This document shows positions 21,922 through 58,014 of a stretch of 64,000 nt of DNA, piece by piece. Source of the DNA: Haloplanus sp. CK5-1 (GTDB taxonomy: Archaea > Halobacteriota > Halobacteria > Halobacteriales > Haloferacaceae). Position 1 is the first letter of the stretch. The number at the start of each line of letters is the position of its first letter. The position numbers were made by a program, and so were the translations under genes. The stretch covers positions 1,054,001-1,118,000 of the forward strand of contig NZ_CP147505.1 in NCBI RefSeq assembly GCF_037201915.1. Reading direction: 5' to 3'. A model generated the notes under the pieces. That model was not told the DNA's origin. It did no database searches and worked only from the letters and a program-made list of their open reading frames with translations.

Positions 21922-22353
21922 TCAGCGGGCGTTCCGTCCCGCGACGTAACTGTGAATCGCGGCGAGTTCGTCCAGCGCCAACCGGGTGCGACCCTCGATG
22001 GCCTGCTGAATCTCCTGTCCCGAGAGGTCGAGGTCGACGTTCGAGGCGATGGTGTCGACGTCGAGGACGCCCGTCGTCATCCCCATCAGCAGGTAGTCGC
22101 GCACCTCCTGTACGATACCGTCGGCGTCCCGGCCGTCGGTTTCGCTGGCGAGGATCGACGCCGCCTCCGACAGCGTCATCGTCGGCGACTCCCCGCTCGC
22201 AAGCGCGGCGACCGTCTCGGTCGGGAGGTCGGCTGCGGTGGCGACGGCCTCGATACCCCTCGCGTCGACCACTGCACGGAGTTCGTCGTCGTAGGCGTCG
22301 CGGAGTTGGCGTGGTGATTTCGTCTCCGGATCGTCGACAGCGTCGTGGAGCAT
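21922..22353 (-). CDS. DUF5791-like haloarchaeal protein
   Basis: A 143-residue acidic helical protein of a conserved haloarchaeal family (DUF5791 as I recall it). Segments such as SEAASILA, DYLLMGMTTGVLDVDTIA and LSGQEIQQAIEGR are helical and suggest a HTH-like bundle. Function unknown. ATG at 22353 is supported by good match to family length; it lies 32 bases downstream of the pilus-like operon end and may share its transcript. Confidence 0.8.
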   Translation of the reverse strand: MLHDAVDDPETKSPRQLRDAYDDELRAVVDARGIEAVATAADLPTETVAALASGESPTMTLSEAASILASETDGRDADGIVQEVRDYLLMGMTTGVLDVDTIASNVDLDLSGQEIQQAIEGRTRLALDELAAIHSYVAGRNAR

Positions 22354-22385
22354 ACGTTCGATGGGTCCCCCGCCAACAAAAGGGT

Positions 22386-25300
22386 TCACTCGCCGTCGCG
22401 GCAGGCCGTCGCCGCCCACGACGTACACCCCGGTCGTGGCCAGGTGCCCGCGCGCTCCTCGCGTTCCCCGTCGACGTCCCCGACACCGTCGCGTCCCGCC
22501 GGTACCGCCACCGCGACTGCCGTTCGCGTCTCGAAGTCGACGCGCTCGTCGCGGCCGAGGCGTTCTCCGTCACCGTCGCCGTCCACGTCCAGTCGTACCG
22601 TCGATCCGTCGCGAACGTACCGGAGCGTACCGCCCGGCGTCGGGCCGCCGCGTCGCGTCCGCAGGCTGAACCGGGCGTACGCCCCGCGGACGGACACCGA
22701 CCAGACGTTGATCGTCGCGTACCAGTACCCCGGGACGGGGGCGACCGGCAACCCCGCCGGCACCGCGCCGAGCGTTCCGTTCAACCGATCGGTGAGCAGA
22801 CGGTCGGTCGCAGCGTCCGCCGCGTCGGTCATCGCTCGTTCGCGGACTCGCGTCACCGTCGCGTTGACCCGTTCCTGTGCGACGGTGCCGGCCCGCGTAG
22901 CGAGCGTGCGACCGAACGTCGTCTCCAGTCGCGCCTCGATCCGGTCGACCCGCGCGGGGTCCGCTCCCGACGCGCGTTCGTCCGCCTCGACGGCTATCGC
23001 CCGGGCGAGCGACCCGTTACTGGCCGCCAGCGCCCGATCCGCCGGGCTCTCCCACCGATCGAATCCAGCCGTGACCGCTTCGCGAACCGACGGCCGTGAG
23101 AGTTGCGTCTCGCTACGAACGGTGTGGCGGCTCCCGGCACGGAGCGTGGCGACCGAGCCAGAGACGGCCGACCGCAGATCGCTTCGGGGCTCTCGGATCG
23201 ACGCGTTCTCGACACCGTCTGCCGCGTTCAGCGCCTGTGCCGCCGTCCGCAGCCTCGTCCGCGAGGAGCCGTTGCTCCCCGATCCGGCCACCGAGTCGGC
23301 CGCGTCACCGTACGGCGCGACAAACAGGTTGACGTTCTCGGACGATAGCGGGTGGTACGACCGCGACGGCGGGACGCCGACGGCGCGGTCGTGACTCACC
23401 GACGCGACGGTGAGGTACGCCGGCGAGCCGTCGGGGACGACGCTCACTGGCCCGGTCGGTGGCGTTCCCTCTCGGGCGAGCGACGCGTTCGCCGGTCCCG
23501 CCGAGCGTCGTCCGGCGTCGAGGGTCCGGCGGAGCGACCGCGGTGATTCGATCCCCGCGTGTCCGAGTACTCGGTCGAACGCTCGCCGTCTCTCCTCGTG
23601 GCCGTCCGCTCGCCGCTCCAGACGGCGGATCGTCGCGTCGACCAGCGCCGCTCGTGCCGCGACCCGCGCTCGATCCGCCGCGCCGCGGTATCGATCCGGC
23701 GGTTCGATCAACGCCATCCGCCGTTTCCGGAGGTCGTCCGCGAGTCGCTCCGGTGGGTTCGCCGTGTACGTCGCGATGCGTCCCGCGTCGACGCCGACGG
23801 AGGCGTTCGAGAGCCGTCCACGGAGTTCCGCCAGGTCCGCGTTCACCCACGAGCGGAGTGCCGAGGGGCGGTCACCGTATACGGTCCGCTCGTGCACGCC
23901 GAGGCTGTCGTTGGCGACGGCGACGGCCACGTCGTCCCGGCCGCCCTGTTCGTCGACCAGTCGTCGCTCCGCCTTCCCGGGTACGTCGGCCAGGTTCGGA
24001 CCACCGACCGGCCCGCCGCGTTCGAACGTCTGCCGGGTCGGTCGGTCGGGTGCCGTTCCGTTCGGGGCGTACTCGCCGACCACCGCGACGCCGACACGGT
24101 ACCGCTCGGTCCACTCTCCGTCCGTGGTGATCGTGCGATTCCCCCGTCGCCACGTCCACGCCACGGTCCGGTCGAGGGTCACGTGCCGGGTGAACGTCTC
24201 GAAGCGATGCCGTTCCGATCCGGAGTCGGGAGCCGGAGCACTGCTCGCGTCGACCTCGGCGCTCATCGTCACGTCGGTGGTTTCGAGACTCCACTCCTCG
24301 CCCGGAGTGTTGGGTTCGGGACGGGGTTCGTCGTACGTCTGTCGACTCGACGTCAGGAGCTCGGCCTCGACGCGATACGCGGATCGAAAGAGACCGTCGA
24401 GCGAGCGATTCGATCGAACCGCCTCGGTCCGAAGCCCAGTCGCCGCCCGGTCGGGGGCCACCCCGGTATCGACGTCGATCCGGTGGCTCGGCGACGGACC
24501 GTCACGTCCTCTGATCGGGAGTTCCACGCTCGTGTTCCCGCTCGCGTTCCGCCGCTCGTTCGGGCGTGGGACGACGCGGTCGGCCCACGACGAGTCGGCT
24601 TCCGTCGCCGCCGTGAGGTCACGGACGCCGAGTTCGAGGGTCGCCCGCCGCGTCGCTCGCCGTCCGGCCGGATCGCTTCGTCCGAAGGCCGACCGCTGTG
24701 CTGTGAGCAGGGCAGCGTTCGTCGACGTTTCGACGTGACGAGTGGCGACGACGTTGGCGATCGGAACTCCGCCGTACTGGGCGTAGCCCCGCGCCCACGC
24801 GATGGGGTAGAGCCGTGCGGTCAGCCGCCGCCCCAGTCCCGGACCGTCCAGCGGGGTTCGGTTCAGCCGCGTCTCGAACGTCGCCGTTCGATCGTGTAGA
24901 GCCAACACCGGCGTCGCGACGGTCACCGTTCGTGTTCGGTGTTCCCTCGCGACTAGCCGGCCGTCGTCACGGGCCGAGACGGTCACGTTCCGGACCGTCA
25001 CGCGGACCGCCGTCCCGTTTCCGACGCCCTTGACCTCGATACGGTCCATCGCACGCCCGAGCTCCGCCGGTGTAGTCGCCTCGGGGAGCGACGCGACGGC
25101 GGTCACGTCGCCCCGCCGATAGCGGGTCGTCTCGAGGCGGTCGTCGAGGCTCAGATAGATTCGGAGCCGCAACGCGTCCCGGAACGGCCGGGCGTCGCTC
25201 AGCAGTCGGCCGTACGGCGTCGCCGCGGGCTCGGTCACCGGCTCCGTCGCCGCCGCTCGCGACGCCTCTCCGACGGCCGATCGGATCGTCTCCGTCGTCG

Positions 25301-25460
25301 CGGCTTCGACCCGCTCCATGGCGACGTCGGCATCGCGGTCGATCCGGTCCGGCCCACGGGTGTCGACCACCGCGGCGAACGTCGACGCGCCGACCAGCAG
25401 GAGGACACCCACGAGCGCGAACGGGACGCGTGCCCGTCGATCCTCGGCGAAGCGGGTCAC
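22386..25460 (-). CDS. Very large exported/membrane protein of pilus-like locus 1
   Basis: A 1024-residue protein, last gene of the first pilus-like operon. A short Arg-rich N-terminus is followed by one hydrophobic helix (VPFALVGVLLLVGASTFAAV), then about 990 mostly polar residues outside the membrane. The body has many Asn-x-Thr/Ser sites, long Arg/Ala-rich helices, and a hydrophobic patch near residue 940 (APVPGYWYATINVW). Only three lysines occur. I link it to the haloarchaeal DUF7286 family from memory. It could be the fibre adhesin, a tip protein or a scaffold. The GTG at 25460 gives the GTGA overlap used throughout this operon; a second GTG is at 25466. Confidence 0.72.
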   Translation of the reverse strand: MTRFAEDRRARVPFALVGVLLLVGASTFAAVVDTRGPDRIDRDADVAMERVEAATTETIRSAVGEASRAAATEPVTEPAATPYGRLLSDARPFRDALRLRIYLSLDDRLETTRYRRGDVTAVASLPEATTPAELGRAMDRIEVKGVGNGTAVRVTVRNVTVSARDDGRLVAREHRTRTVTVATPVLALHDRTATFETRLNRTPLDGPGLGRRLTARLYPIAWARGYAQYGGVPIANVVATRHVETSTNAALLTAQRSAFGRSDPAGRRATRRATLELGVRDLTAATEADSSWADRVVPRPNERRNASGNTSVELPIRGRDGPSPSHRIDVDTGVAPDRAATGLRTEAVRSNRSLDGLFRSAYRVEAELLTSSRQTYDEPRPEPNTPGEEWSLETTDVTMSAEVDASSAPAPDSGSERHRFETFTRHVTLDRTVAWTWRRGNRTITTDGEWTERYRVGVAVVGEYAPNGTAPDRPTRQTFERGGPVGGPNLADVPGKAERRLVDEQGGRDDVAVAVANDSLGVHERTVYGDRPSALRSWVNADLAELRGRLSNASVGVDAGRIATYTANPPERLADDLRKRRMALIEPPDRYRGAADRARVAARAALVDATIRRLERRADGHEERRRAFDRVLGHAGIESPRSLRRTLDAGRRSAGPANASLAREGTPPTGPVSVVPDGSPAYLTVASVSHDRAVGVPPSRSYHPLSSENVNLFVAPYGDAADSVAGSGSNGSSRTRLRTAAQALNAADGVENASIREPRSDLRSAVSGSVATLRAGSRHTVRSETQLSRPSVREAVTAGFDRWESPADRALAASNGSLARAIAVEADERASGADPARVDRIEARLETTFGRTLATRAGTVAQERVNATVTRVRERAMTDAADAATDRLLTDRLNGTLGAVPAGLPVAPVPGYWYATINVWSVSVRGAYARFSLRTRRGGPTPGGTLRYVRDGSTVRLDVDGDGDGERLGRDERVDFETRTAVAVAVPAGRDGVGDVDGEREERAGTWPRPGCTSWAATACRDGE

Positions 25461-26296
25461 GGCCACGTCCTCACGGTGATTCGTACGCGACCGAGGCCGA
25501 CGCGCTCGCTCACCGCTCGCGCCGACGCGTTCGTCGCTCCGAGGTCACGTGCCACCCGATCGGAGACGGCCGCGGCGAGACGCTCGTTGGTGTCGTCGAC
25601 CCCGCCGCTCGCGAGCCGGGTCGATCGGCCGACACCGAAGCGTTCCGTCGCCTGTCGGTATCGGTGCCGTATCACGGCCGAGACGGGGCGGGCCCCGCCG
25701 GCGGCGACGCGGGTCCGCGTCGGCGGAAACAGGCCCTCCACGAACCCCTCGGCTACCACGTCGGCGACCCCCTCGATGCCTCGCGCTCGGGCGGCGTCCC
25801 GTGTCTCGTCCCGTCGGGTGGGAAATCCGCTCGAAACGGTCATCGTCGCCGCGTGAACCGGCACGTCTGGCGGTGGTCGCGCGCCCACGGCAACGTGGCC
25901 CTTGATCGACGGTCCCGGATACGGCCGCCAGACGGCCGTAACCCGCGTGTGGTTCTCTTGGATCGCCCCCCTGACGGCACTCGCTACCGCCGCCCCGAGT
26001 CCATCACGGGCGTGAGACAGACGCCGGCCGTCCACCGTGATCCGGCCGACCGCCGCGCGTGCGAGGAGCTCCGCGAGCGTCCCGTGGGCAGTCCGGTCGA
26101 CCGACACGCGGGCCCCGTCGCCTGTGGTCGGTTCGAGCGTGTAGTTTACCGACGTCGTCGTCGTCGCGAGCGTCGACGACACGTCCGGTGCGCGGCCCTC
26201 ACCGGTCGCCTCCCGAGGCGTCGCAGTCGTCACCGTCACCACTGCGCCGCTGATCAGAAGGAGACAGAGCACCCCGTCGAGGACGGTGCTCGTCAC
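25457..26296 (-). CDS. Pilin-like exported protein of pilus-like locus 1
   Basis: A 279-residue protein starting with GTG in a 4-base overlap with its upstream neighbour. The N-terminus (VTSTVLDGVLCLLLISGAVVTV) is a single hydrophobic helix right at the start, as in Tad-type or class III prepilins. The rest is an exported domain rich in Thr, Arg and Val. One lysine. No enzymatic motif. Probably a minor subunit of the fibre or a membrane-bound assembly partner (DUF7284-like from memory). Confidence 0.68.
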   Translation of the reverse strand: MTSTVLDGVLCLLLISGAVVTVTTATPREATGEGRAPDVSSTLATTTTSVNYTLEPTTGDGARVSVDRTAHGTLAELLARAAVGRITVDGRRLSHARDGLGAAVASAVRGAIQENHTRVTAVWRPYPGPSIKGHVAVGARPPPDVPVHAATMTVSSGFPTRRDETRDAARARGIEGVADVVAEGFVEGLFPPTRTRVAAGGARPVSAVIRHRYRQATERFGVGRSTRLASGGVDDTNERLAAAVSDRVARDLGATNASARAVSERVGLGRVRITVRTWP

Positions 26297-26685
26297 GCCC
26301 ACACCTCCACGCGGACGCGACCCGGGCGGACCCGAGCCGGGCCGATTTGGATGCCGATCCGACGTGTCGCCGTCTCGGTGTCGACAGCCTCGGGTGGGGT
26401 CGGACCGGTGTGCCACCGCTGACCGGCCGCGGCGGCGGTGACGTTCAGGCGGTAGCCCGCCGGCCCCGCCCGCCGTGCTCGGTCCGTTCGATCCGGCTTC
26501 GCGACGCCGCCCGAAGCGAGGATGTCGACGACCCGGTCGAGCGTCGGCGGCGCGACCGATCGCTCCTCCTCGCCGATGGCTCCGTCCACGGCGGCAGCGT
26601 ACGTCGAGACGGCCACACACACGGCCACGAGCACCACGAGCGCGGCGACTGGTTCGACCTGCCCCCTAGCCGACGAGCGTGACAT
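26293..26685 (-). CDS. Small pilin-like protein of pilus-like locus 1
   Basis: A 130-residue protein with a class III (prepilin) signal: SSARGQVEPVAALVVLVAV, where cleavage after RG would leave a Gln-initiated hydrophobic helix, the classic archaeal prepilin peptidase (PibD) site. The globular part is small. One lysine. This is the best candidate for the main fibre subunit of the locus. ATG at 26685 or GTG at 26688. Confidence 0.72.
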   Translation of the reverse strand: MSRSSARGQVEPVAALVVLVAVCVAVSTYAAAVDGAIGEEERSVAPPTLDRVVDILASGGVAKPDRTDRARRAGPAGYRLNVTAAAAGQRWHTGPTPPEAVDTETATRRIGIQIGPARVRPGRVRVEVWA

Positions 26686-27133
26686 CACACCCCTCCCAGA
26701 CGACGTGTCTGACGATCAGCGGACCCTCGGCCGACCGCCAGCGTGAGTTCCTTTCCCGCGCCGTCCCGGCGGCCGTACAGAGCGCATCGCCGGAGTCGAA
26801 CCGACTCCCCGGGGGCGCACCGCGGAGGACCGCTGTCAGCGAATCGATCCCGGCGGCGGGGGTCACGGGACCGAACGCGAACGTCGCGTGGGTCGTCCCG
26901 GCGTCGTTTCGGAGTCCGATCCCCCCGGGTTCGACCCGGATCGCCCGTGCGTCGAGCGGGTGTTCGGCGGTCGCGGGGTGTGCCGTCGCCGCCGTTCGGT
27001 CGACCGTTCCGGCCACGTCGGCGGCGGCCGGCGGCGGGGCCGTCGGGAGCGCCGCAGCGACGCCCACCAACGCGACACTCGCGATGGACAGTCCGAGCCA
27101 CGTGTACCACGCATCGACTGGAACGCCGAACAT
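26666..27133 (-). CDS. Small membrane-anchored exported protein of pilus-like locus 1
   Basis: A 155-residue protein. An N-terminal hydrophobic helix (TWLGLSIASVALVGVAAAL) is followed by a Pro/Ala-rich linker and an exported domain with two cysteines (about residues 118 and 149) that could form a disulfide. It has no lysine. It overlaps the next pilin-like gene by 20 bases. Function unknown; probably a minor subunit or an anchor for the platform. Confidence 0.66.
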   Translation of the reverse strand: MFGVPVDAWYTWLGLSIASVALVGVAAALPTAPPPAAADVAGTVDRTAATAHPATAEHPLDARAIRVEPGGIGLRNDAGTTHATFAFGPVTPAAGIDSLTAVLRGAPPGSRFDSGDALCTAAGTARERNSRWRSAEGPLIVRHVVWEGCDVTLVG

Positions 27134-27175
27134 GGGGTGGGATGGCCCCGTTACCGCACTTGAACCTCGGCCCGG

Positions 27176-28894
27176 CTACAGGAACAGGCCCGCGCCGACG
27201 TACGCCGAGAAGTAACAGCAGGTCGCGAGACACAGCGCGACCCCGATGCGGTGCCCGAGATGCGTCCGGTCGAGCCCGCGGGTCAGCCCCGTCGAGAGCA
27301 CGGTGAGCGCCACCGCGAGCCAGAGGACGTACGCTCCGACGGCGACGCCGAGTTCTCCCGTCGGAAGCGCTCCCGCCCCGAACCCGGCGGTTTCGGTTCG
27401 CCCGACCCGCGCGGACAGGGCGACCGTCGCGCCACCGACGAGCGGTCCGAAGACGGCCGCAGTGTTCGACAGTGTTCCCGTGACCTGTGCCAGTTCGCGC
27501 CGTGCGTCGCGTTCGATCCGCCGCAGTTCCTCGGCGTGTTCCGCCGTCGCGACCAGCGCGTCGCCGGCGGGCCGGCCCTCGGTCGCCGCGAGGCCGAACA
27601 GTTCGGCCATCTCGTTGGCCCGTCGGCTCGGGAGCGTACCGAGTACCCCGTGCTCGCCGCGGAACGCCTCGGCCACGGTGACACCGAGTCGGTGCTGTCG
27701 CTCCGTCGCCTCTTCGAGGAGGTCGCCCGTCGCGCCCGACATCCGATCGGCCACTCCGTCGACCGCCGTCTCGACGGCTTCCCCGGCAGACACGCGCCGT
27801 CCGACGAGATAGAGCGCGTCGTGGAGTTCCGACTCGACCGCGATGACACGCTCGCGGACGCGTCTGGCTTCGTGGACGTGGACCACGAGCGCGACACCCG
27901 GTCCGAGACCGACGGCGGCGACCGGCCCGGCCCACCCCCCGACCACGTGCGTCACGACGACGACGCCGACCGCTGCCGCGACGACGCCGGCGGCCACCGA
28001 ACGGGACCATCCGTCGGGCGTGTCGGGGTGATCCCGGCCGATCCGGGGCGGCGGGAACGCGACTGGCCGGCGAGCGAGGAGCCACGCCCCGGCCACGACC
28101 ACCACGAGCGGGAGCGCGAGGTCGTAGAGTGCGACGACGACCGGTAGTGAGAGCCGAACGCCGGTCGCCCGGGCCGCCGGGAGGACGCCGACGAGCGCTA
28201 GCGGTAGGAGAACGCCGAAGGCGTACAACCCCGTCACCGGCCCCCTGATCTCGGTCGCGAACGTCGCCAACTCCTCTCGCGCGCCGTCGAGCGCCGCCGC
28301 TACTGCCCGGTCGAGGTGTCGGTCGCGCTCCGTGGCCGGTGCTGACGCCGCGGCGTCGAGCCGGTCGACGGCGCGTTCGAGCGCCGGGAACTGATCTCCC
28401 CACTCGTCGACGAACGCCTCGAAGCCACTCCGTGGCGTCCCGCGGGCGCGGTCGACGTGGCGGTGGAGGCTTCGAGCTAGCACCCCGCTCCCCGTCCGGG
28501 CGGCGAAGACGGCCGCGCGCTCGGTCGCAGGGTCGATCCGCAGACGGAGCGCGGCCCGTCCGACGAGCGCGGCGGCCGACCCCAGCGCGCGTGTCCGACG
28601 CAGCGTCGCCAGGAACCGAACGCCTCGTTCCACGACGGTCGGGACGCAGACGCCGACGCCCGTCCCGGCGGCCAGGATGGCGAGTCCGATTCGCCCCGAC
28701 CCGAGTGTAGCCACGCCCACCCCGACACCGACTGCGACGACGGCCACGACGACGGCCACACTCCGGGCCGCACGCTCGGTCGTCTCGGCGTCGGCGCTCC
28801 AGCCGAGATGTGCGAGCGCCCGCTCGAACGCCGGGTCGGGGTCCACGCCTGTCGGCCACGCGGCAGCCAGTCGCCCGACTGCAGTCCCGGTCAT
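27176..28894 (-). CDS. TadC/PilC-type platform protein of locus 1 (lysine-free)
   Basis: A 572-residue multi-pass membrane protein of the T2SS F family. Two similar halves each carry a cytoplasmic helical domain followed by membrane helices: one set near residues 45-90 and 215-270, the second at about 300-345 and 480-570. The segment GVTVAEAFRGEHGVLGTLPSRRANEMAELFGLA resembles the conserved F-domain. The protein contains no lysine. Its ATG overlaps the ATPase stop by 4 bases. It should form the inner-membrane base on which the ATPase acts. Confidence 0.83.
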   Translation of the reverse strand: MTGTAVGRLAAAWPTGVDPDPAFERALAHLGWSADAETTERAARSVAVVVAVVAVGVGVGVATLGSGRIGLAILAAGTGVGVCVPTVVERGVRFLATLRRTRALGSAAALVGRAALRLRIDPATERAAVFAARTGSGVLARSLHRHVDRARGTPRSGFEAFVDEWGDQFPALERAVDRLDAAASAPATERDRHLDRAVAAALDGAREELATFATEIRGPVTGLYAFGVLLPLALVGVLPAARATGVRLSLPVVVALYDLALPLVVVVAGAWLLARRPVAFPPPRIGRDHPDTPDGWSRSVAAGVVAAAVGVVVVTHVVGGWAGPVAAVGLGPGVALVVHVHEARRVRERVIAVESELHDALYLVGRRVSAGEAVETAVDGVADRMSGATGDLLEEATERQHRLGVTVAEAFRGEHGVLGTLPSRRANEMAELFGLAATEGRPAGDALVATAEHAEELRRIERDARRELAQVTGTLSNTAAVFGPLVGGATVALSARVGRTETAGFGAGALPTGELGVAVGAYVLWLAVALTVLSTGLTRGLDRTHLGHRIGVALCLATCCYFSAYVGAGLFL

Positions 28895-30801
28895 TTCGCC
28901 ATCCGCCTGCGGTGTACCGTATCCACCTCGGTCGGTGACGTCCGCTCCGTCGCCGCGAGGTCGGCCAAGAGTGATTCGCGCTCGTCGAGTTCGTCGAGCA
29001 CGTCCGCGTACGACTCCCCCGGTCGGGTCAGTGACGCCACGAGATGACTGTTTCCGCGCTCGACGACCCCTGTCGGCTCGGTTCCCCCGTCCCCGGCTAC
29101 GAACAGCGACTCGAACGCGACGCCCTCCCCGGTGTGGCGCACTTCTTCGATGGTGTCCACACGTCGGCTCTCGCCCGCCGCGAGTGTGACGAGCAGGTCG
29201 GTCGCGGCGAACGACGACGCCGGCACGCCGAGGTCGGTCACGACGCGCTCGAACACGGCATCGGACCCGTCGCCGTGGATCGTCCCGAGGACGGCGCTCC
29301 CCGCCGCGCCCACCCGCATCGCCTCGTACAGCGTCATCGCCTCTTCACCCCTGACCTCGCCGACGACCAGCGCACCCTCGCCGAGTCGGAGCGCGGTCCG
29401 TAGCGCTTCCTCGGCGGATAGCGACGGCCCGTCGCCGCTCTCTATCCGAACCGGTTGGACGTCCCGGCCGGCCTCCTGCAGTTCGGTCGCCGGGAGTTCG
29501 GGCGTGTCCTCGACGACGACGGTCCGCGTCGTCGGCGGGAGTTCCCAGAGGAGCGCGGAGAGCAGCGTGGTCTTGCCGGCACCCCGTGGCCCGGCGATCA
29601 ACCCCGCAGCGGCGCGCTCGACGGCGAGCGAACAGAGCGCGGCGGCGTCGGCCGGGAGCGTCCCGTTCTCCACGAGGGCGGCGAGCGTCCACGCCGTCGT
29701 CCCGTGCGTTCGGAAGACGAAACCGTGGCCCTCGCTCGCCGGATCGGTGGTCCCCGCGACGCGGACTCGGTCGCCGGCGAGCGTCTCCGTCGTCGCGTCG
29801 AGCGTAGGGTTCGCCCGTGAGAAGGACCGGCCACTCTCCCTGCGGAAGCGGGAGGCGAGCGCTGTGGCCCCCTCGCGTGTCAGGTGGACGTTCGTCGGTA
29901 CTCTGTCGCCCCCAACGACGACTCGGACGGGGTTGTCGCTCACGGGTGCGGTCACGAGCACCTCCGACACCAACGGGTCGGTGAACAGATCCTCGAGGAC
30001 GCCGTGCCCGTGCGTCTGTTTTCGGAGGACTCGCTCGACGGCCTCGACCGACACTTCGGCAGGGTCCACGTCACCAACCGCTCGGACGGCCCGTGCGATC
30101 GGCCGGTCGTCGTCCGTCGTCGGGCCCTCGGCCAACTGCTCGTACGCCTCCGCCAGAGCGCGGAGTCCCCCGTCGCCGAGCCGCGTTTCGAGCGGATCGA
30201 GCAAGTAGTATCCCCCCGCTTCGGTCCGGTACCGACGTACCGTCGCGCCGGTGTCGAGCTCCCGACGGTCGAGCAGTGTCGCCTCGCTCGGCGGCCGGTC
30301 CGACAGTCTCGCGTTCGACATCGTCGGTCCGACGGTCGCGGGAAGCGCCCGTTCGTAGCCGCCGTCGACCCGGTCGGCACCCGCGGCCAGCCCCGTCGTC
30401 GCCGCCACGTCTGCCACCGGTCCGGCGCGCCCGGTCGCGGCGCGGGCGGCTCCGAGCGGATCGCTGCGCGCCCGCTCCGCGAGGACCCCGTCGTGGACGG
30501 CGACACGAGCGACGAAGCGACCGGCCGCGACGAGTAACCCCACCGCTCCGTCGTCGTAGACGCGTTCTCGCCCCGCGTGTCGGACGCGGACCGCGTCGAC
30601 CTCGCGGTTCGAGAGCGCATCGATCACCGTCGCACGACAGTCGGGAGCGGCCGCGAGGTCACCGCCCCCGGAGCAGCCGTCGGCGTCGACGACGAGCGCG
30701 ATGCCCCGGTCCGGATCGGCTCCCGGTGGCGACCGAAACGACGGCTCGCACCGACACATGTTGCCCGACTCGTCGTCCCGGAATCGGTCCAGTAGCCTCA
30801 T
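28891..30801 (-). CDS. Type II/IV secretion ATPase (VirB11/TadA-like) of locus 1
   Basis: A 636-residue ATPase with the Walker A motif GPRGAGKTT (Lys410), an Asp box (VVVEDTPELP), VVGEVRGEEAMTLYEAM (Walker B region) and TIHGDGSDAVFERV (His box). The N-terminal 200 residues are specific to this family, with a Cys-rich start (MCRCE and a further Cys pair) that could hold a metal. Only three lysines, one of them the catalytic Walker Lys. It should drive assembly of the fibre. ATG at 30801 is chosen over 30822 because it fits the gene start context. Confidence 0.88.
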   Translation of the reverse strand: MRLLDRFRDDESGNMCRCEPSFRSPPGADPDRGIALVVDADGCSGGGDLAAAPDCRATVIDALSNREVDAVRVRHAGRERVYDDGAVGLLVAAGRFVARVAVHDGVLAERARSDPLGAARAATGRAGPVADVAATTGLAAGADRVDGGYERALPATVGPTMSNARLSDRPPSEATLLDRRELDTGATVRRYRTEAGGYYLLDPLETRLGDGGLRALAEAYEQLAEGPTTDDDRPIARAVRAVGDVDPAEVSVEAVERVLRKQTHGHGVLEDLFTDPLVSEVLVTAPVSDNPVRVVVGGDRVPTNVHLTREGATALASRFRRESGRSFSRANPTLDATTETLAGDRVRVAGTTDPASEGHGFVFRTHGTTAWTLAALVENGTLPADAAALCSLAVERAAAGLIAGPRGAGKTTLLSALLWELPPTTRTVVVEDTPELPATELQEAGRDVQPVRIESGDGPSLSAEEALRTALRLGEGALVVGEVRGEEAMTLYEAMRVGAAGSAVLGTIHGDGSDAVFERVVTDLGVPASSFAATDLLVTLAAGESRRVDTIEEVRHTGEGVAFESLFVAGDGGTEPTGVVERGNSHLVASLTRPGESYADVLDELDERESLLADLAATERTSPTEVDTVHRRRMAK

Positions 30802-30834
30802 ACTGTCCCGTTGCCCCGGCATCGCTTTTGAATC

Positions 30835-31269
30835 TCAGTCACGCCGGACGACCACCCTGACCCCGTCGTCGCGAACGAGCGAGAGGACGAGCCGGTGTCG
30901 ACCCGGTGTCCGCAGGCTGATCGGGCCGTCCGGCGTCCGCAGGTCGACGCCCCGAAGGGTCGTCCGCCGGGGTCGACCGTCTCCAACCCGATAGGCGAGT
31001 AGATCCGCCGTCCCGTCGATCCGTAGTGTCGCCTCGCTGGCCGTCCACGAGCGGGCCGGAAGCCGCAGGGTGACGATCCGTCGTGCGCCAGCCACCGACG
31101 GTCGGGTCGGGTCCTCGTGGGCGAGCAACGACCGCGCTGCCCGGTCGAGTCGATCGGTTGTCCCGTCGAGGTGGATTGCCGTCCGCGCCGCCTTTCCCTC
31201 CTCGATCGCCGGCGTCGCGGCCGCCAGCAACACGACGGTCAGAACGACGGCGAGGACGACGCGGATCAC
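30835..31269 (-). CDS. Small membrane-anchored exported protein of locus 1
   Basis: A 144-residue protein with GTG start in a GTGA overlap with the coiled-coil gene. One N-terminal helix (VVLAVVLTVVLLAAATPAI) is followed by a beta-rich exported domain (TPDGPISLRTPGRHRLVLSL). One lysine. Between the coiled-coil protein and the ATPase gene; likely a membrane-bound member of the same machine (DUF7311-like from memory). Confidence 0.68.
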   Translation of the reverse strand: MIRVVLAVVLTVVLLAAATPAIEEGKAARTAIHLDGTTDRLDRAARSLLAHEDPTRPSVAGARRIVTLRLPARSWTASEATLRIDGTADLLAYRVGDGRPRRTTLRGVDLRTPDGPISLRTPGRHRLVLSLVRDDGVRVVVRRD

Positions 31270-31934
31270 AACAGTCGTCGGATGCGGTCGGCCAGCGATA
31301 AGGCCCCGCTCTCGTCCTCGTCCACGTACTCGTGCCTGGTCTCGCTGTCCTCGATGTCGGGACGGTCGACGGCCGCTGCGGCGGTTGCGGCCGTCTCCGC
31401 GAGCGTCGCGTCCGTTCGTCTCGACGTCCCCGACCGCTCCGTCGACCCCGTACCGTCCGCGTCGCTTCCGCCCCGCCAACCGTCCGTTCCCGCCCCGACA
31501 CCACCGGACGCTCCCTCGGTCGCGCGGTCCGGTTCGCCGTCGTCGTGCCACTCCACTCCGTCTTCCCGCCCCGTGTCGTCGTCGACTGTCGTCTCGGCGG
31601 TGTGTCTCGGACCGTCCACGTCGCGTTGCGCCCGGTCGTCGCCGTGGTCGGGTGCCTCGTGTAGGTCCGCTTCGAGGCGCTCGACCCGTGCCACGGCGGC
31701 GTTCGCCCGACGTTCGACTTCCTCGTCGACCGCTCGCACGCCGCCGGCGAACCCCCGGAGGGCCTGCACCGCCGCCTCCAGATCGGCCAGTCGGTCGTCG
31801 AGTTCCTCGACGTTCGTTTCGATGTCGTCCAGTCGTTGCTCCATTCGGGCGGTGTCGGGCAGTCCGTCCACGGCGTGTCCGTCGCTGATCGCCCGCTCTA
31901 CCGCGTCGATCCGGTCGTCCAGTCGGTCGTCCAT
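31266..31934 (-). CDS. Coiled-coil protein, first gene of pilus-like locus 1
   Basis: A 222-residue soluble protein. Residues 1-95 are heptad-rich (MDDRLDDRIDAVERAI, ETNVEELDDRLADLEAAVQ) and should form a long coiled coil. Residues 100-185 are an acidic Gly/Ser/Asp linker of low complexity, and the C-terminal 35 residues form a short helix region (LSLADRIRRLL). No lysine. It may tether the ATPase or other cytoplasmic parts. A second ATG seven codons upstream (31955) is possible. Confidence 0.7.
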   Translation of the reverse strand: MDDRLDDRIDAVERAISDGHAVDGLPDTARMEQRLDDIETNVEELDDRLADLEAAVQALRGFAGGVRAVDEEVERRANAAVARVERLEADLHEAPDHGDDRAQRDVDGPRHTAETTVDDDTGREDGVEWHDDGEPDRATEGASGGVGAGTDGWRGGSDADGTGSTERSGTSRRTDATLAETAATAAAAVDRPDIEDSETRHEYVDEDESGALSLADRIRRLL

Positions 31935-32058: not shown

Positions 32059-33129
32059 ATGAAGTCCGTCCTGATTGGTGTCGGACAGGCAGGCGGCAAA
32101 GTCGTCGGCGCCCTGTCCGATTTCGACGCGCGGAACGGTTTCGGTGCGGTCGTCGGATCGCTCGCGGTCAACAGTGCCCGGTCGGACCTCCAGTCCCTCC
32201 CGCTGGAGACGGTCCTCATCGGCGGGGCAGAAGTGAACGGTCACGGCGTCGGCGGCGACAACGAACTCGGCACGAAGGTGATGCGCGACGACGTCCAAGA
32301 GGTGTTGAGCGCTATCGACGGCCGGATGACGGCCCGCGCCGAGGCGATGTTCGTCGTCGCCGGCTTGGGCGGTGGCACCGGAAGCGGCGGCGCGCCGTAC
32401 CTCGTGAAGAAACTGCAACGCGTCTACGACGTCCCAGTCTACGGCCTGGGCGTCCTCCCCGGGCGCGACGAGGGCGCGCTGTACCAGGTGAACGCCGGGC
32501 GATCACTGAAGACGCTCACCCGGGAGGCGGACGCGACGATACTGGTCGACAACGACACCTGGCGGTCGGCGGGCGAGAGCCTCGAATCCGGCTACGAGGC
32601 GATCAACGAGCGTATCGCTCGGCGCGTCGGACTCCTCCTCGCCGCGGGCGAAGCCGTCGGCGGCGTCGGCGAATCGGTCGTCGACAGTTCGGAGGTCATC
32701 AACACGCTCCGTGGCGGCGTTGCGACCCTCGGCTACGCGTCGGCCGACGCCGCGCCCGACGCGGGTGGGAACGTCAACGTCGTCACGAGCACGACCCGCC
32801 GGGCCGTTCGGTCGGGACTCGGTCTGCCGGACACGACGAGCGCGGAGCGGGGACTACTCGTCGTCGCTGGCCGTCCCCGAGCGGTCTCACGGAAGGGCGT
32901 CGAGAAGGCCCGGTCGTGGCTGGAGACGGAACTCGACACGATGGAGGTCCGCGGCGGCGACTTCCCCCTCGACGACGACCGGTTGGCGTCGCTCGTCCTC
33001 CTCGGTGGTGTCGTGGACTCCGACCGTCTCGACGGCTTCCTCGAACGGGCGCGGCGGGCAGCCGAAGACGGTGTGGCGGAGGACGAAAACGAGACGCTCG
33101 CCGACGACCGGATCGACGGCCTGCTGTAG
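32059..33129 (+). CDS. cetZ: CetZ-family tubulin-like GTPase
   Basis: A 356-residue tubulin/FtsZ-superfamily protein. The nucleotide-binding loop is at residues 7-13 (GVGQAGG) and the tubulin signature GGGTGSG at 104-110. The NxD-type catalytic loop region is modified compared with bacterial FtsZ, as in the CetZ group that controls cell shape and motility in haloarchaea. It is divergent from locus 1 with 124 bases between, holding a weak TATA (TGTTTTGAAG, about 32024). Confidence 0.86.
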   Translation: MKSVLIGVGQAGGKVVGALSDFDARNGFGAVVGSLAVNSARSDLQSLPLETVLIGGAEVNGHGVGGDNELGTKVMRDDVQEVLSAIDGRMTARAEAMFVVAGLGGGTGSGGAPYLVKKLQRVYDVPVYGLGVLPGRDEGALYQVNAGRSLKTLTREADATILVDNDTWRSAGESLESGYEAINERIARRVGLLLAAGEAVGGVGESVVDSSEVINTLRGGVATLGYASADAAPDAGGNVNVVTSTTRRAVRSGLGLPDTTSAERGLLVVAGRPRAVSRKGVEKARSWLETELDTMEVRGGDFPLDDDRLASLVLLGGVVDSDRLDGFLERARRAAEDGVAEDENETLADDRIDGLL

Positions 33130-52182: not shown

Positions 52183-52204
52183 CGTGAAACACCTGATGCG
52201 TGCA

Positions 52205-54871
52205 ATGGCTATCGACGACGCCGAGAGCTCCGATCCCGAGGAGTTCGACGGTTCGACCGCTCCGCGACGGAACACGGATGCGGTCGACCCCTCGGAGGTA
52301 TCGGCGTTGCTCGCCGCGGGCGAGGCAGCCGCGACGGCCCTCGACGAGGCCGTCGCGGAGGCACGGACAGGTGACACGCCGGTCGTCAAGGACCTCTGGA
52401 CCTGGGAGGACTACAAGCAGGAGTACTACTACGACGCCGACGGCAACCCGCCGACGGACGGCAACGGGGAGGTCGTGCCCTTCGATCCGAGCGACAGCCT
52501 CGGTTTCGACCCCGACCGCACGGAGGCAGTGTTCTCGGGCGCCGCCGACCTCGCCGACCGACTCGACGACGTCGTCGACGAGCGGACGGTCGAAGTCGAC
52601 GCCGACCTCGACGAGGACGCCTTCTTCCGGACGCCTCTCGGTACCACCACCATCGCCAACCGGTACGATCTGGAGAAGACGGTCCCGCTGGAGAAGAAGA
52701 CCCACTTCCACGAGATCGACCGATACTGGGTGAACAAACCGTACGCGTTCGTCGTCATCTTCCAGTCGCGCAAGGAAAACGAGAAGAAGTACTACGTCGT
52801 CCAGCCCCACACCACGTCGATCGAGGACGACCTCCGCGAGTTCCTGACGGCGAAGCTCCAAAATGCCATCAAGTACACCGAGGTCGGTGTCGCCGGCGGT
52901 CTCGACGAACGCGAACGCGTGATCAGGGACGAGACGTACGGCCTGCTGGACCGGTACGACCTCTACTCCCGGACCCCCGGGACCGGACTGCTCGACTCCA
53001 TCGCCTCCCAACTCGGCATCGAGGACGCCGAAGGGACCGTCGGTCGCCTCCTCTCGCGGCTGGGTTGGCGTCCGAAGCGGGACGTGGGCGAAGAGATCGA
53101 CGGTATTGAGACCCGGCCCGAACCGGTGGTGTTGGCGGAAGACGCGACCTCCCTCTCGGAGTACCAGGTCGAGAAACTGCTCTACTACCTCAAGCGGGAC
53201 TTCATCGGCTACGAGCGCATCGACCCGATCAAACACGATATCAACGTCGAGGACATCTCCTGTGACGGCTACCACTCGCCCGTCTTCGTCTACCACAGCG
53301 ATTACGAGCAGATCATCACCAACGTCTACCACGGCGACGACGAACTCGACGACTTCGTGGTCAAGCTCGCCCAGCGGTCGGGCAAGGGTATCAGCAAGCG
53401 CCGCCCGCAGGTCGACGCCACCCTGCCGGACGGCTCGCGCGCCCAACTCACGCTGGGCAAGGAAGTCTCGGACCACGGCACCAACTACACCATCCGACAG
53501 TTCAAGGACGTCCCCTTCACCCCCGTGGACCTCATCAACTGGAAGACGTTCTCGCTGGAGGAGATGGCGTACCTCTGGCTCGCCATCGAGAACAACAAGT
53601 CGCTCATCTTCGCCGGCGGGACGGCGTCGGGGAAGACCACGAGTCTCAACGCCGTCTCCCTGTTCATCCCCTCGAACTCCAAGATCGTCTCCATCGAGGA
53701 CACCCGAGAGGTCGAACTCCCCCAGCGCAACTGGGTGGCGTCGGTCACCCGTCCTTCGTTCTCCGACGACGAACAGGGCGAGGTCGACGAGTTCGACCTG
53801 CTGGAGGCCGCACTCCGACAGCGGCCGGAGTACATCGTCATGGGCGAGATCCGGGGCGAGGAGGGGCGGACCCTCTTCCAGGTCATGTCGACCGGGCACA
53901 CCACGCTGACGACGTTTCACGCCGACTCGGTCGGCGAGGTGCTCAAGCGGTTCACGACCGAACCGATCAACGTCTCGAAGACCATGTTTACCGCGCTGGA
54001 CCTGGTGTCGATTCAGACCCAGACCAGGGTCGAGGGGACGAAGGTCAGGCGGAACAAGAACCTCACCGAGATCAACTTCTACGACGCCGAAAACGACGAA
54101 ATCAACGTTCAGGACGTCTACCAGTGGCAGGCCGAGACCGACGAGTTCCTCCGGATGAGCGACTCCAACACCCTCGAAGAGATCCGCTTCGACCGTGGGT
54201 GGACCCGGTCGACGCTCGACGAGGAGATATTCAAGCGACAGGCCGTCCTCGCTTACCTCATCGAGAACGGACTCAACACCTACACGCAGGTCGCCGCCAC
54301 GGTCCAGGCGTTCATCAACGACGAGGAGACCATCCTTGCGCTGATGGCCAACGACCAACTCGAACGCAGCCTGGAGGACCTCCGGGAGATGGAGTCGGTC
54401 CTGATCGACATCGATCCCGAGAAGGAGGCAATGGTCCCACGGCCGGACCCGAGCGAGGAGGAGCTGGACCTGTGTGCGGACATCCTCGACCGGGCCGACA
54501 CGGAACTGTTCGAGGCGTACCGCGGCGAGGACCGCGGGGGCGTCGACTCGGCGCTGCTGGACGTCGACTCCGCACCCGACGTGACGCCCGACGGGGCGAC
54601 CGACGGCGACGACCCCGACTCCGACTCCGACTCCGACCTCGACCCCTCGCCAGTCGACTCGGGGAGCGACGACGCCACCGCGGACGACGCCGGCACCCCG
54701 CCCGGCGACGACTTCGGTATCTCCTTCGAAGACGACGCGGGCGACGCTCCCCCGACGTTCGACGAAAGCGGGAAGGGAGCGGACGAGAGTGAAGATGAGA
54801 GCGAGGATGGGGCGGCCGTCGACGAGTGGGGGTTCGGCGACGTGACCGAGGACGAAGAGGAGGAGAACTGA
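52205..54871 (+). CDS. Type IV pilus/archaellum-type secretion ATPase (PilB/ArlI-like) of locus 2
   Basis: An 888-residue ATPase. The N-terminal 200 residues are acidic (TWEDYKQEYYYDADG is a family mark), the core has the Walker A GGTASGKTTS (Lys477), Asp box SIEDTREVELP, Walker B IVMGEIRGEEGRTLF and His box TLTTFHADSVGEVL. The last 130 residues form a disordered Asp/Ser/Glu tail. It drives assembly of a type IV pilus-like fibre. It contains about 31 lysines, unlike its counterpart in locus 1. The leaderless start at 52205 is favoured. Confidence 0.92.
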   Translation: MAIDDAESSDPEEFDGSTAPRRNTDAVDPSEVSALLAAGEAAATALDEAVAEARTGDTPVVKDLWTWEDYKQEYYYDADGNPPTDGNGEVVPFDPSDSLGFDPDRTEAVFSGAADLADRLDDVVDERTVEVDADLDEDAFFRTPLGTTTIANRYDLEKTVPLEKKTHFHEIDRYWVNKPYAFVVIFQSRKENEKKYYVVQPHTTSIEDDLREFLTAKLQNAIKYTEVGVAGGLDERERVIRDETYGLLDRYDLYSRTPGTGLLDSIASQLGIEDAEGTVGRLLSRLGWRPKRDVGEEIDGIETRPEPVVLAEDATSLSEYQVEKLLYYLKRDFIGYERIDPIKHDINVEDISCDGYHSPVFVYHSDYEQIITNVYHGDDELDDFVVKLAQRSGKGISKRRPQVDATLPDGSRAQLTLGKEVSDHGTNYTIRQFKDVPFTPVDLINWKTFSLEEMAYLWLAIENNKSLIFAGGTASGKTTSLNAVSLFIPSNSKIVSIEDTREVELPQRNWVASVTRPSFSDDEQGEVDEFDLLEAALRQRPEYIVMGEIRGEEGRTLFQVMSTGHTTLTTFHADSVGEVLKRFTTEPINVSKTMFTALDLVSIQTQTRVEGTKVRRNKNLTEINFYDAENDEINVQDVYQWQAETDEFLRMSDSNTLEEIRFDRGWTRSTLDEEIFKRQAVLAYLIENGLNTYTQVAATVQAFINDEETILALMANDQLERSLEDLREMESVLIDIDPEKEAMVPRPDPSEEELDLCADILDRADTELFEAYRGEDRGGVDSALLDVDSAPDVTPDGATDGDDPDSDSDSDLDPSPVDSGSDDATADDAGTPPGDDFGISFEDDAGDAPPTFDESGKGADESEDESEDGAAVDEWGFGDVTEDEEEEN

Positions 54872-54872
54872 C

Positions 54873-56912
54873 GTGAGTCTCGACACCGGACGCGGGCTGG
54901 ACCGCAGCGTCGACAGCCTCGGAGACCTGTTCTACCCGCTCTTCCAGTTGCTGTTCGACGAGGACGGCGACTTCGTCGACGACATGGAGACGAAGTTGGT
55001 GCAGGCGCGGATGGCGACGACGGTCGAACTCTACCTCTCGCGCGCCCTCGCCGTCGGTGTCCTCCTCGGGCTCGTGCTGTGGGCGGTGGGAACACTCGTC
55101 GGTTACAGCCTCTTCGCGTTCGGGATCATCTCCCCGGACCTGTTCTCGACCGGGGCGCGCATCCCGAACGAGACGGTCGTCACCCTCATCGAGCGGTTGA
55201 AAGTCCCTGCTGCCATCGGTATCACCGGTCTGGTCACCGGATCGGTCGGCTTCGTGACCGGCTTCGGCACCCTCGTTGCAATCCCCTACTCGACGGCCTC
55301 GACCCGGGAACGAGAGATCAATATGCTCCTCTCGGACTCGATCTCGTTCATGTACGCCCTCTCGGTGGGTGGACTGAACCAACTCGAGATCCTCGAGGCG
55401 ATGGCCCGGGCAGACGACACGTACGGCGAGGTGGCAAAGGAGTTCCAGAGCATCGTTCAGGAGACGGAGTACTTCGGCACCGACTACCGCAACGCCATCC
55501 GGAAACAGGCGGCGGCAACGCCGAGCGACGACCTCTCGCAGTTCCTGACGGACATGCTCTCCATCGTCAACTCCGGTGGGAACATGCAGGCGTTCCTCTC
55601 CGACAAGAAGGACAAGCACATGCGCACCGCCAAACAGCAACAGGAGGTCACCCTCGACACCCTCGAACTGTTCGGCGAGATGTACATGACGCTCTCGCTG
55701 TTTCCCCTCCTCCTCATCATCATCCTCGTTATCATGAGCATGCTCGGCGAGGCACAGACGCTCATGCTGTACGGCACGGTGTACGCGCTCATTCCGCTGA
55801 CCGGCGTGATGTTCCTCGTGCTGGTGTCGACGGTGAAACAGGACGAACCCGGCAACGGCTACCTCGACCCGAGCGAAGCGGGCGACCGGGTGCAGAAGGT
55901 CCAGAAGGAGGGGCTTCGACACCTCGGTCTGATCGAGAGTTACGTCGGCGAGTTCGGTATCTTCGACCGGATCAAATCCCGCGAAGGGACGTTCAAGACC
56001 AAACAACTCCTCCGGAACCCACACCACTTCTTCCGGGACAACCCGCTGTTTACGCTCGCGCTGACCGCGCCCGCCGCTCTCGTGTTGGTCGTCGTCGCCG
56101 TCGCCACGGGGTCGGTTCCGACGACGTGGGACGGGATGATCCAGGCACCCGTCTGGGGCACCTTCATCTGGGTGTACGTCCCCCTCTACGTCCTCCTGAT
56201 CCCGCTCACCGTCTTCCACGAGTGGAACGTCCGATCACGGGCGGCGATCACCGGAAAACTCTCCGACAACCTCCGGAAACTGTCGAGCGCGAACGACACC
56301 GGACAGACGCTTCTGGAGTCGATCCAGACGACTGCGGAGACGTCGTCGGGGAAACTCGCGGACGAACTCGACGTCATCTACGCCAAGGTGAACTACGGGA
56401 TGAGCCTGCGGGACGCGCTGGTCGAGTTCAACAACAAGTACCACGTTCCGCGACTGGCGCGGACGGTCAAACTCATCAGCAAGGCACAGGAGGCCTCCAG
56501 TCAGATCACGCAGGTGCTGACGACGGCCGCCCAAGCCAGCGAGAACCAGGACGACATCGAACGGGAGCGTCGCTCCCGGACTCGGATGCAGGTGGCGATC
56601 ATCCTGATGACCTACCTCACGTTGCTCGGCGTGATGGCGATTCTGAAGACGCAGTTCCTCGACGTGATGGCCGGTCTCACGGAGCAAGCCGCGGGGAGCG
56701 GTGGCGGTGGCGGCGGTGGCGGACAGGCACAGTTCGGCGGCGGCATCGACACGCAACTGCTCTCTTTGCTCTTCTTCCACGCAGTGACGCTGCAGGCAAT
56801 CCTCTCGGGGATCATCAGCGGCTACATCCGGACGGCGAACCTGCTCGCCGGCATCAAGTTCGTGGTGATCCTCCAGACCATCGCTCTGGTCGTGTGGCTG
56901 GTGGTCGGATGA
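54873..56912 (+). CDS. Type IV pilus platform protein (PilC/ArlJ-like) of locus 2
   Basis: A 679-residue membrane protein of the T2SS F family from GTG 54873, two bases after the ATPase stop. Helices: about residues 55-80, 110-135, 270-310, 400-445, 570-590, 635-679. Conserved F-domain segments are LPLLLIII-like and FGEMYMTLSLFPL. Near residues 607-624 it has a run GGGGGGGGQAQFGGG, a flexible loop. About 23 lysines. It forms the base of the fibre together with the ATPase. Confidence 0.9.
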   Translation: MSLDTGRGLDRSVDSLGDLFYPLFQLLFDEDGDFVDDMETKLVQARMATTVELYLSRALAVGVLLGLVLWAVGTLVGYSLFAFGIISPDLFSTGARIPNETVVTLIERLKVPAAIGITGLVTGSVGFVTGFGTLVAIPYSTASTREREINMLLSDSISFMYALSVGGLNQLEILEAMARADDTYGEVAKEFQSIVQETEYFGTDYRNAIRKQAAATPSDDLSQFLTDMLSIVNSGGNMQAFLSDKKDKHMRTAKQQQEVTLDTLELFGEMYMTLSLFPLLLIIILVIMSMLGEAQTLMLYGTVYALIPLTGVMFLVLVSTVKQDEPGNGYLDPSEAGDRVQKVQKEGLRHLGLIESYVGEFGIFDRIKSREGTFKTKQLLRNPHHFFRDNPLFTLALTAPAALVLVVVAVATGSVPTTWDGMIQAPVWGTFIWVYVPLYVLLIPLTVFHEWNVRSRAAITGKLSDNLRKLSSANDTGQTLLESIQTTAETSSGKLADELDVIYAKVNYGMSLRDALVEFNNKYHVPRLARTVKLISKAQEASSQITQVLTTAAQASENQDDIERERRSRTRMQVAIILMTYLTLLGVMAILKTQFLDVMAGLTEQAAGSGGGGGGGGQAQFGGGIDTQLLSLLFFHAVTLQAILSGIISGYIRTANLLAGIKFVVILQTIALVVWLVVG

Positions 56913-57406
56913 CTCGCAGCCGCGGACAGACGACGCTCGATTTCGCCGTCGGCGTGAGCCTCTTCCTCGGCGTAGTCGCGTTCGCCTTCGCGTTCGCGCC
57001 GACGATGTTCGCTCCGTTCGGCTCCGACACCGGCGTGAACTCGGTGATCGCGGACCGGAGCGCGGACCGACTGGCCGCCGACGCCCTCGTGGATTCGCCG
57101 GACGACCCCGCCGTCCTCGACGGGAGTTGCACGCGGAGTTTCTTCGACGGGAGCGTCCCGGCCGACTGTCGGTACACCACGACCGACCTCGGCGATACGC
57201 TCGGCCTCGATTCGACGACTCAGGTGAACGTGACGATCAGGAACGCGTCGGGGATCAGGTCCCTCGGTGGCACGCGACTGGCCGCCGGCGATCCGACCAC
57301 GACCACGGCCGACGTGGTCGTGGCGCGGCGTGTCGTATTGCTGCCGGGCAGTGACGACACCGCGTTCGACAGGGAGCGAAACCAGTTGCTCGTTCGGGTG
57401 TGGTGA
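56909..57406 (+). CDS. Pilin-like protein of locus 2
   Basis: A 165-residue protein whose ATG overlaps the platform stop. The N-terminus MTRSRGQTTLDFAVGVSLFLG has the prepilin signature: positive tail, RG cleavage site, Gln at +1, acidic residue at +5, then a hydrophobic helix. The body is exported with two cysteines (residues 72 and 84) that may pair. No lysine. Probably a fibre subunit. Confidence 0.75.
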   Translation: MTRSRGQTTLDFAVGVSLFLGVVAFAFAFAPTMFAPFGSDTGVNSVIADRSADRLAADALVDSPDDPAVLDGSCTRSFFDGSVPADCRYTTTDLGDTLGLDSTTQVNVTIRNASGIRSLGGTRLAAGDPTTTTADVVVARRVVLLPGSDDTAFDRERNQLLVRVW

Positions 57407-58014
57407 CCGTGCGGGGACAGGCACACACGCTCGAAGCGTTCGTCGCGGCGCTCCTGGTGTTGAGCGGCATCAGCTTCGCGCTCGGGACGACGGCCGTGAC
57501 CCCGCTGTCCGCGAGTACCTCGAACCAACACGTCGGCAATCAGGAGCGAGCCGCGGCGGTCGGCGTCCTCGAGGCAACCGAGGCCGACGGGAGCCTCGCC
57601 GAGGCCGTCGTCTACTGGAACACGACCCCCGACGACGACAGCGGCGAGTTCTACGGCGCGAACAACAGCGACGGGACGGGCTACGCCACCGGCCCGCCGA
57701 ACGAGTTCGGTCGCGTCCTCAACGAGACGTTCGGTGACCGGCGCGCCGCGTTCAACGTGGCCGTCGTCTCGTTCGACCGGAACGGCTCCCGGACCACGAC
57801 GACGATGGTTCGGATGGGTGTCCCCAGCGACGACGCGGTGACCGCCACCCGGCAGGTCGTCCTGTACGACGACACGACCCTCTCGTCACCCGAACTGGGG
57901 AACGTCTCGGCGGCCGCCACGGACTCGGATCGGCGGTTCTACGCGTCCGATATCGACCCCGGCAATCGGCTGTTCAACGTCGTGGAGGTGCGCATCACCG
58001 TATGGCGGATCTGA
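57403..58014 (+). CDS. Pilin-like protein of locus 2
   Basis: A 203-residue protein from a GTG overlapping the previous stop (GTGA). N-terminus VTVRGQAHTLEAFVAALLVLSG: RG cleavage site, hydrophobic helix with Glu at +6. The body is rich in Asn/Thr/Asp with several glycosylation-type N-x-T/S sites. No lysine. Second subunit of the fibre or a minor pilin. Confidence 0.74.
   Translation: MTVRGQAHTLEAFVAALLVLSGISFALGTTAVTPLSASTSNQHVGNQERAAAVGVLEATEADGSLAEAVVYWNTTPDDDSGEFYGANNSDGTGYATGPPNEFGRVLNETFGDRRAAFNVAVVSFDRNGSRTTTTMVRMGVPSDDAVTATRQVVLYDDTTLSSPELGNVSAAATDSDRRFYASDIDPGNRLFNVVEVRITVWRI

Follow-up and report, generated by a model that had tools for sequence, protein, structure and literature searches.

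An eight-gene operon beside cetZ2

The window analyzed here is a 64,000-nucleotide stretch of the genome of Haloplanus sp. CK5-1. Between positions 22386 and 31934 it contains eight uninterrupted open reading frames on the minus strand, close to where an earlier sequence-only reading had placed them. The genes and their surroundings, beginning with the first gene of the operon, are as follows.

31266..31934, minus strand: DUF7310 coiled-coil cytoplasmic protein, first gene; 222 aa, Pfam E 4e-27, no transmembrane (TM) segment
30835..31269, minus strand: DUF7311, N-terminal TM helix plus ectodomain; Pfam E 6.6e-42, class III leader absent
28891..30822, minus strand: PilB2-type VirB11-like secretion ATPase; 643 aa, T2SSE E 6.6e-18
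27176..28894, minus strand: PilC2/TadC platform protein; 572 aa, T2SSF E 2.1e-4 (below the curated cut-off), several TM segments, 4-base overlap with pilB
26666..27133, minus strand: DUF7283, TM-anchored; Pfam E 2.5e-54, class III leader absent
26293..26688, minus strand: DUF7285 prepilin with the class III site ARG/QVEP (slash, cleavage point); Pfam E 3.8e-35
25457..26296, minus strand: DUF7284 pilin-like protein, N-terminus M-TSTVLD; Pfam E 4.8e-85
22386..25460, minus strand: DUF7286, about 1024 aa, TM-anchored ectodomain with the class III-like site RA/RVPFALVG; Pfam 1156 bits
31935..32058, no strand: intergenic stretch of 124 bases between the operon and divergent cetZ2
32059..33129, plus strand: cetZ2 (tubulin-like), divergent neighbor; CetZ_C and Tubulin (Pfam)
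21922..22428, minus strand: DUF5791 protein, downstream neighbor; Pfam E 2.9e-46, adjacent in most regions

Four-base overlaps can be read at the junctions 31269/31266 (GTGA), 28894/28891 (ATGA), 26296/26293 (GTGA), and 25460/25457 (GTGA), and the DUF7283 and DUF7285 genes overlap by 23 bases. By hydropathy, the five exported proteins each carry a single TM-like segment, at the N-terminus; PilC has many such segments, and the coiled-coil protein and the ATPase have none. All eight proteins are named by Pfam (DUF7310, DUF7311, T2SSE, T2SSF, DUF7283, DUF7285, DUF7284, and DUF7286), with scores well over the cut-off for all but PilC (T2SSF, 21.7 bits where the cut-off is 25.2); an NCBIfam search of the pilus genes returned general ATPase matches only. 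The open reading frames and junction sequences agree with the overlapping eight-gene arrangement that the sequence-only reading had described, and Pfam and hydropathy agree with its division into an ATPase, a platform protein, a coiled coil, and five single-helix exported or membrane proteins. Its description of those five as unrecognized partners does not hold, since each belongs to a Pfam family.

The eight genes are real, as attested by their Pfam families and by the conservation of the proteins and their order across 20 regions of other genomes. The order coiled coil-7311-PilB-PilC-7283-7285-7284-7286 is constant in these regions. DUF7310 is at the same position in 19 of the 20; the single-query search behind this count did not pick up the two leading genes of one region or the DUF7284 gene of two regions, and a broader query finds DUF7284 in all 100 loci searched. 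DUF7286 is 64-78% identical to Haloplanus copies. The genes are nearly always found together: 66 of the 73 named loci that have 9 kb or more of upstream sequence carry the complete set in this order. Among the exceptions are cassettes with no motor nearby and, in Halorussus ruber, a motor and a cassette that stand apart from each other. More diverged loci of Natrialbales type, a taxon label drawn from the published distribution, have the same gene order. A check of these divergent loci for an extra gene between DUF7283 and DUF7285 showed, in the one locus examined (L149), only a longer DUF7283.

DUF7286 is present in 224 of 292 Halobacteria genomes. The system occurs in about three quarters of the Halobacteria sampled, and both motor and cassette have methanogen relatives. 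An ATPase matching this PilB profile at E <= 1e-50 is present in all eight genomes with DUF7286 versus 1 of 25 without it (Fisher p = 6e-7, a value that is indicative only, as related genomes are not independent), and DUF7283 is absent from all 20 genomes searched that lack DUF7286.

The motor and the published PilB2/PilC2 system

The P-loop and GEVRGEE-type motifs of the ATPase are conserved across 21 sequences, and four N-terminal cysteines, C23, C25, C50, and C62, are invariant in the same number. We rejected these cysteines as a novelty because a Cys-rich N-terminus already appears in Makarova 2016 (PMC4858521). PilB2 would hydrolyze ATP and drive the platform PilC2, which in turn would raise pilin-like subunits out of the membrane to build a filament or a short pseudopilus, and the DUF7310 coiled coil may act on the ATPase from the cytoplasm, as a regulator or an adaptor.

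The PDB sequence relatives of the ATPase include 2oap, CpaF, and FlaI; the best one carries the deposited name "type II secretion system protein" and stands alongside CpaF pilus ATPases. Together with several leaderless TM-anchored subunits and one ectodomain protein of ~1000 aa, this would suit a machine resembling type II secretion, in which a short pseudopilus or fixed membrane complex exports or holds surface proteins and no long fiber is made. We judge such a machine unlikely. Where the function of an archaeal VirB11-type ATPase is known, it powers a pilus or an archaellum (general knowledge; PMC4858521), and the neighborhood has no constant cargo gene across the 20 regions.

According to Makarova, Koonin & Albers (2016, PMC4858521), the type IV pili (T4P) of ATPase subclade 4F in Halobacteria combine an ATPase whose N-terminus is Cys-rich with the coiled-coil protein arCOG07564, an FtsZ-like neighbor, and often an S-layer-like protein, and are linked with stand-alone PilA-type major pilins. 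The subclade, which is also found in methanogens, is like our locus in its Cys-rich ATPase N-terminus, TadC, pilins, and FtsZ-like neighbor, and for its coiled coil and S-layer-like protein our locus has candidates of matching type and position; we found no difference between the two in the features compared. The locus may be placed provisionally in subclade 4F on these features. DUF7310 probably fills the arCOG07564 slot, the correspondence being one of type and position, and DUF7286 is a candidate surface component and a candidate for the S-layer-like protein.

The divergent neighbor has 4b45 as its best PDB match (479 bits, versus 304 bits for 4b46); these entries are H. volcanii CetZ2 and CetZ1, respectively (PMC9856176). 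According to Brown & Duggin 2023 (PMC9856176), cetZ2 in Haloferacales and Halobacteriales adjoins a pilB2/C2 regulon with predicted pilins and a surface protein. The operon described here likewise lies beside cetZ2, and the genes around it, which code for DHH, epimerase, DUF5791, and phosphodiesterase proteins, are as in the published neighborhood; the DUF5791 gene probably corresponds to arCOG04674 of the cetZ2 region. Because the features of subclade 4F are present by type and position and the cetZ2 linkage is also found, the system is a known one. It is already described and widespread, and our analysis adds little beyond the two published surveys, which report neither a pilus from this operon nor a phenotype. 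The earlier proposal of a distinct surface filament or secretion device holds in that this is an operon of type IV filament type, but one already described (PMC4858521, PMC9856176). Nor can the coiled-coil starter and the 1024-residue protein be said to belong to no described system, as the first survey includes the coiled coil and S-layer-like protein and the second the surface protein.

Of 72 loci, 52 have a cetZ gene no farther than ~10 kb away, and linkage of cetZ to pili has been noted also for Thermococcales (PMC9856176), which could be taken to mean that the tubulin-like protein positions or scaffolds the pilus within one machine. We regard this as improbable, given that more than a quarter of the loci have no cetZ nearby and that many genomes carry cetZ2 without the pilus operon (PMC9856176). 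The locus provides a clean, testable parts list, made up of a motor, one coiled-coil protein, and five subunits in fixed order, with CetZ2 as a candidate partner.

Among known systems, the pil-2 locus of Halobacterium salinarum encodes a PilB2 of arCOG01818, co-transcribed with PilC2 and prepilins, and is induced in adherent cells (Losensky et al. 2015, PMC4292770). It differs from our operon in being a 6.9-kb unit of seven ORFs, a length that appears too short for a DUF7286 gene, and we set it aside as direct experimental evidence for that reason; Makarova appears to place it in subclade 4C (PMC4858521). The PilB3/PilC3-PilA adhesion pili of H. volcanii share the logic of a PilB/PilC motor, PibD processing, and pilins supplied in trans, but the pilB3 operon contains no pilin genes and the families are different. 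A second T4P locus, with a PilB3-like ATPase, is located at 52-60.6 kb of the window.

Prepilin signals and the exported subunits

Class III prepilin sites, which belong to the minimal type IV filament set named in the sequence-only reading, are present in DUF7285 and DUF7286, in DUF7284 only among relatives, and not in DUF7283 or DUF7311, in which no class III site was found when N-termini from 20 genomes were compared. In DUF7286, R[AG] stands at -2/-1 before a [RWQ]xPF core in 97 of 100 copies, and in DUF7285 it precedes an xxEP-type core in 68 of 99. The corresponding R[AG]/xSTVLD motif of DUF7284 occurs mainly in Halobacteriales; in Haloplanus, Halorubrum, and relatives the protein starts M-TSTVLD, which would fit a leader cut back to the start Met alone, with the mature start still in register. 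The genome encodes one PibD-family peptidase (PF06847, over the cut-off, at G000:C1:225207), and ten Pilin_N (PilA-type pilin) matches lie elsewhere in it.

It could be argued that the class III-like motifs are incidental and that the five proteins are ordinary membrane-anchored parts of a non-pilus envelope complex, as leaders are not present in all five and no known fold was matched. We think this very improbable in view of the conserved R[AG] in nearly all DUF7286 and most DUF7285 copies and the tie of these genes to a T4P motor.

Our preferred reading, to which we assign a probability of about 0.72, identifies the locus with the PilB2/PilC2 type IV pilus operon of haloarchaea (the subclade 4F system and cetZ2-linked regulon) and takes the five subunits for a minor-pilin/tip or priming complex. 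It draws on the protein families, the CetZ2 neighbor, the match to the literature, gene order, co-occurrence, the class III sites, PibD, and the Pilin_N matches. In such a pilus, PibD would remove the class III leaders before assembly, so that DUF7285, DUF7286, and, in many lineages, DUF7284 would be processed subunits; DUF7283 and DUF7311 would be similarly built TM-anchored subunits without a leader. The large exposed part of the complex would be DUF7286, and the part of major pilin would fall to DUF7285 or, with greater likelihood, to a PilA-type pilin from another locus. Against this reading stand the missing prepilin leaders of DUF7283, DUF7311, and, in this genus, DUF7284, as well as a broken helix in the DUF7284 and DUF7286 models (in a region of low confidence) and the lack of a PDB match to a pilin fold.

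A rival reading is that of a self-contained, distinct filament, in which DUF7285 would be the major pilin, DUF7286 a large decorating or S-layer-like subunit, and outside pilins would play no part. The prepilin N-terminus of DUF7285 is of the most orthodox haloarchaeal type and the operon holds a full minimal T4P set, both of which speak for such a filament. The link of subclade 4F to stand-alone PilA-type major pilins (PMC4858521), the many Pilin_N genes in the genome, and the occurrence of cassettes with no adjacent motor speak against it, and we consider it possible but rather unlikely.

AlphaFold2 models were obtained for DUF7284 (pLDDT 89.8) and DUF7286 (mean pLDDT 72.7). In both, the TM helix and the next helix are separated by a break, modeled with low confidence, instead of forming one continuous pilin helix. 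With Foldseek, neither model matched a PDB entry at E <= 0.001. The best VIA-align hits were to unrelated proteins (Z 6.0, 88 aligned, 4.6 A for DUF7284; Z 5.2, 106 aligned, 3.9 A for DUF7286), and SecB-like, hotdog-like, and ribosomal-protein-like entries, all with Z of 6 or less, were discarded as common arrangements. For these predicted structures, the absence of a fold match neither backs nor rules out a pilin fold.

A possibly separable cassette and loss of the operon

Outside Halobacteria, DUF7286 is present in two families of methanogen type within the phylum; Methanosarcina acetivorans is one of the positive controls. Three genomes were read from one of these families; in them DUF7285, DUF7284, and DUF7286 follow in the same order, and in two of the three the first-slot gene is a DUF7311 relative (hhalign 96%). 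The gene in the DUF7283 slot shows no link to DUF7283 (hhalign 3.6%), and the methanogen coiled coil has only a weak link to DUF7310. The PilB2-type ATPase sits elsewhere in the methanogen genomes, not beside the cassette. It is a new detail that four of the five exported subunits are grouped in methanogens too, in the same order but not next to the motor.

Some haloarchaea carry extra cassettes beside which no pilB or pilC was found (L152, L153, L155). Together with the methanogen copies, they suggest that the five subunits work jointly and can be separated from the motor, as would suit a minor-pilin or tip/priming complex. A comparable make-up is known from bacterial T4aP, where a compact operon apart from the motor genes encodes several minor pilins and one surface protein of ~1000 aa, PilY1. 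We found no sequence or fold match between the two sets, and the role that we suggest for the five subunits is by analogy only. As a tentative extension, which we consider rather unlikely, the five exported proteins could be an ancient priming/tip complex independent of the motor and common to Halobacteria and methanogens, in which the DUF7286 fold is not among solved structures and some subunits have given up the prepilin leader.

For the pilB2/C2 regulon, Brown & Duggin (2023, PMC9856176) favor a recent gain or a mobile element, whereas the spread over Halobacteria, the methanogen relatives, and a deletion scar that we observed point to loss as well. The scar is found in locus L158, which keeps cetZ, the coiled-coil gene, and DUF5791, with the start of DUF7311 fused directly to the C-terminal part of DUF7286. 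In a genome of the same genus (L050) the whole operon is present, so at least some absences of the operon are deletions. That one lineage lost the operon by internal deletion is, like the methanogen cassette and the extra haloarchaeal cassettes with no adjacent motor, a new detail.

Amino terminus of DUF7284

The exported subunit DUF7284 (gene start at window 26293-26296) and its relatives begin M-TSTVLD in Haloferacales, whereas those of Halobacteriales have R[AG]|xSTVLD, where the bar marks the predicted class III prepilin cleavage site. Judged from these sequences, the Haloferacales proteins have apparently lost the prepilin leader while retaining the mature N-terminus.

Deleted and apparently interrupted copies

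In L158, a locus from another genome, the first codons of DUF7311 are fused onto the C-terminal quarter of DUF7286 (L158:12235-13455), and the junction sits between cetZ and the coiled-coil gene on one side and DUF5791 on the other. This arrangement is an internal deletion of the pil operon. Apparent disruptions occur in three further loci: DUF7286 is interrupted in genome G220 (L157, G220:C19), and internal stops occur in one gene each of two further genomes (L040 DUF7283 and L009 DUF7286). All three are apparently broken copies, which may be sequencing errors. In the window, reading the DUF5791 ORF (21922-22428) from its first start codon makes it overlap DUF7286 by at most 43 bases, at the 3' end of the latter.

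Cassettes elsewhere and a second pilus locus

Additional 7283-7285-7284-7286 cassettes of exported-subunit genes are present in L152, L153, and L155, the last including 7311 as well; pilB/pilC were looked for beside these cassettes and not found. The cassette also occurs in methanogens, in regions that include these two:

L159:9085-15987, methanogen cassette region
L160:9076-15063, methanogen cassette region

In both, the next gene after the cassette encodes one more exported protein (177-202 aa) with no Pfam family, and in L159 a divergent coiled-coil gene lies ahead of the cassette.

Besides the pil operon, the window holds another type IV pilus locus:

52184-60590, + strand, encoding a PilB3-like ATPase, a T2SSF platform with two domains, and proteins of the families DUF7288, DUF7261, and DUF7289
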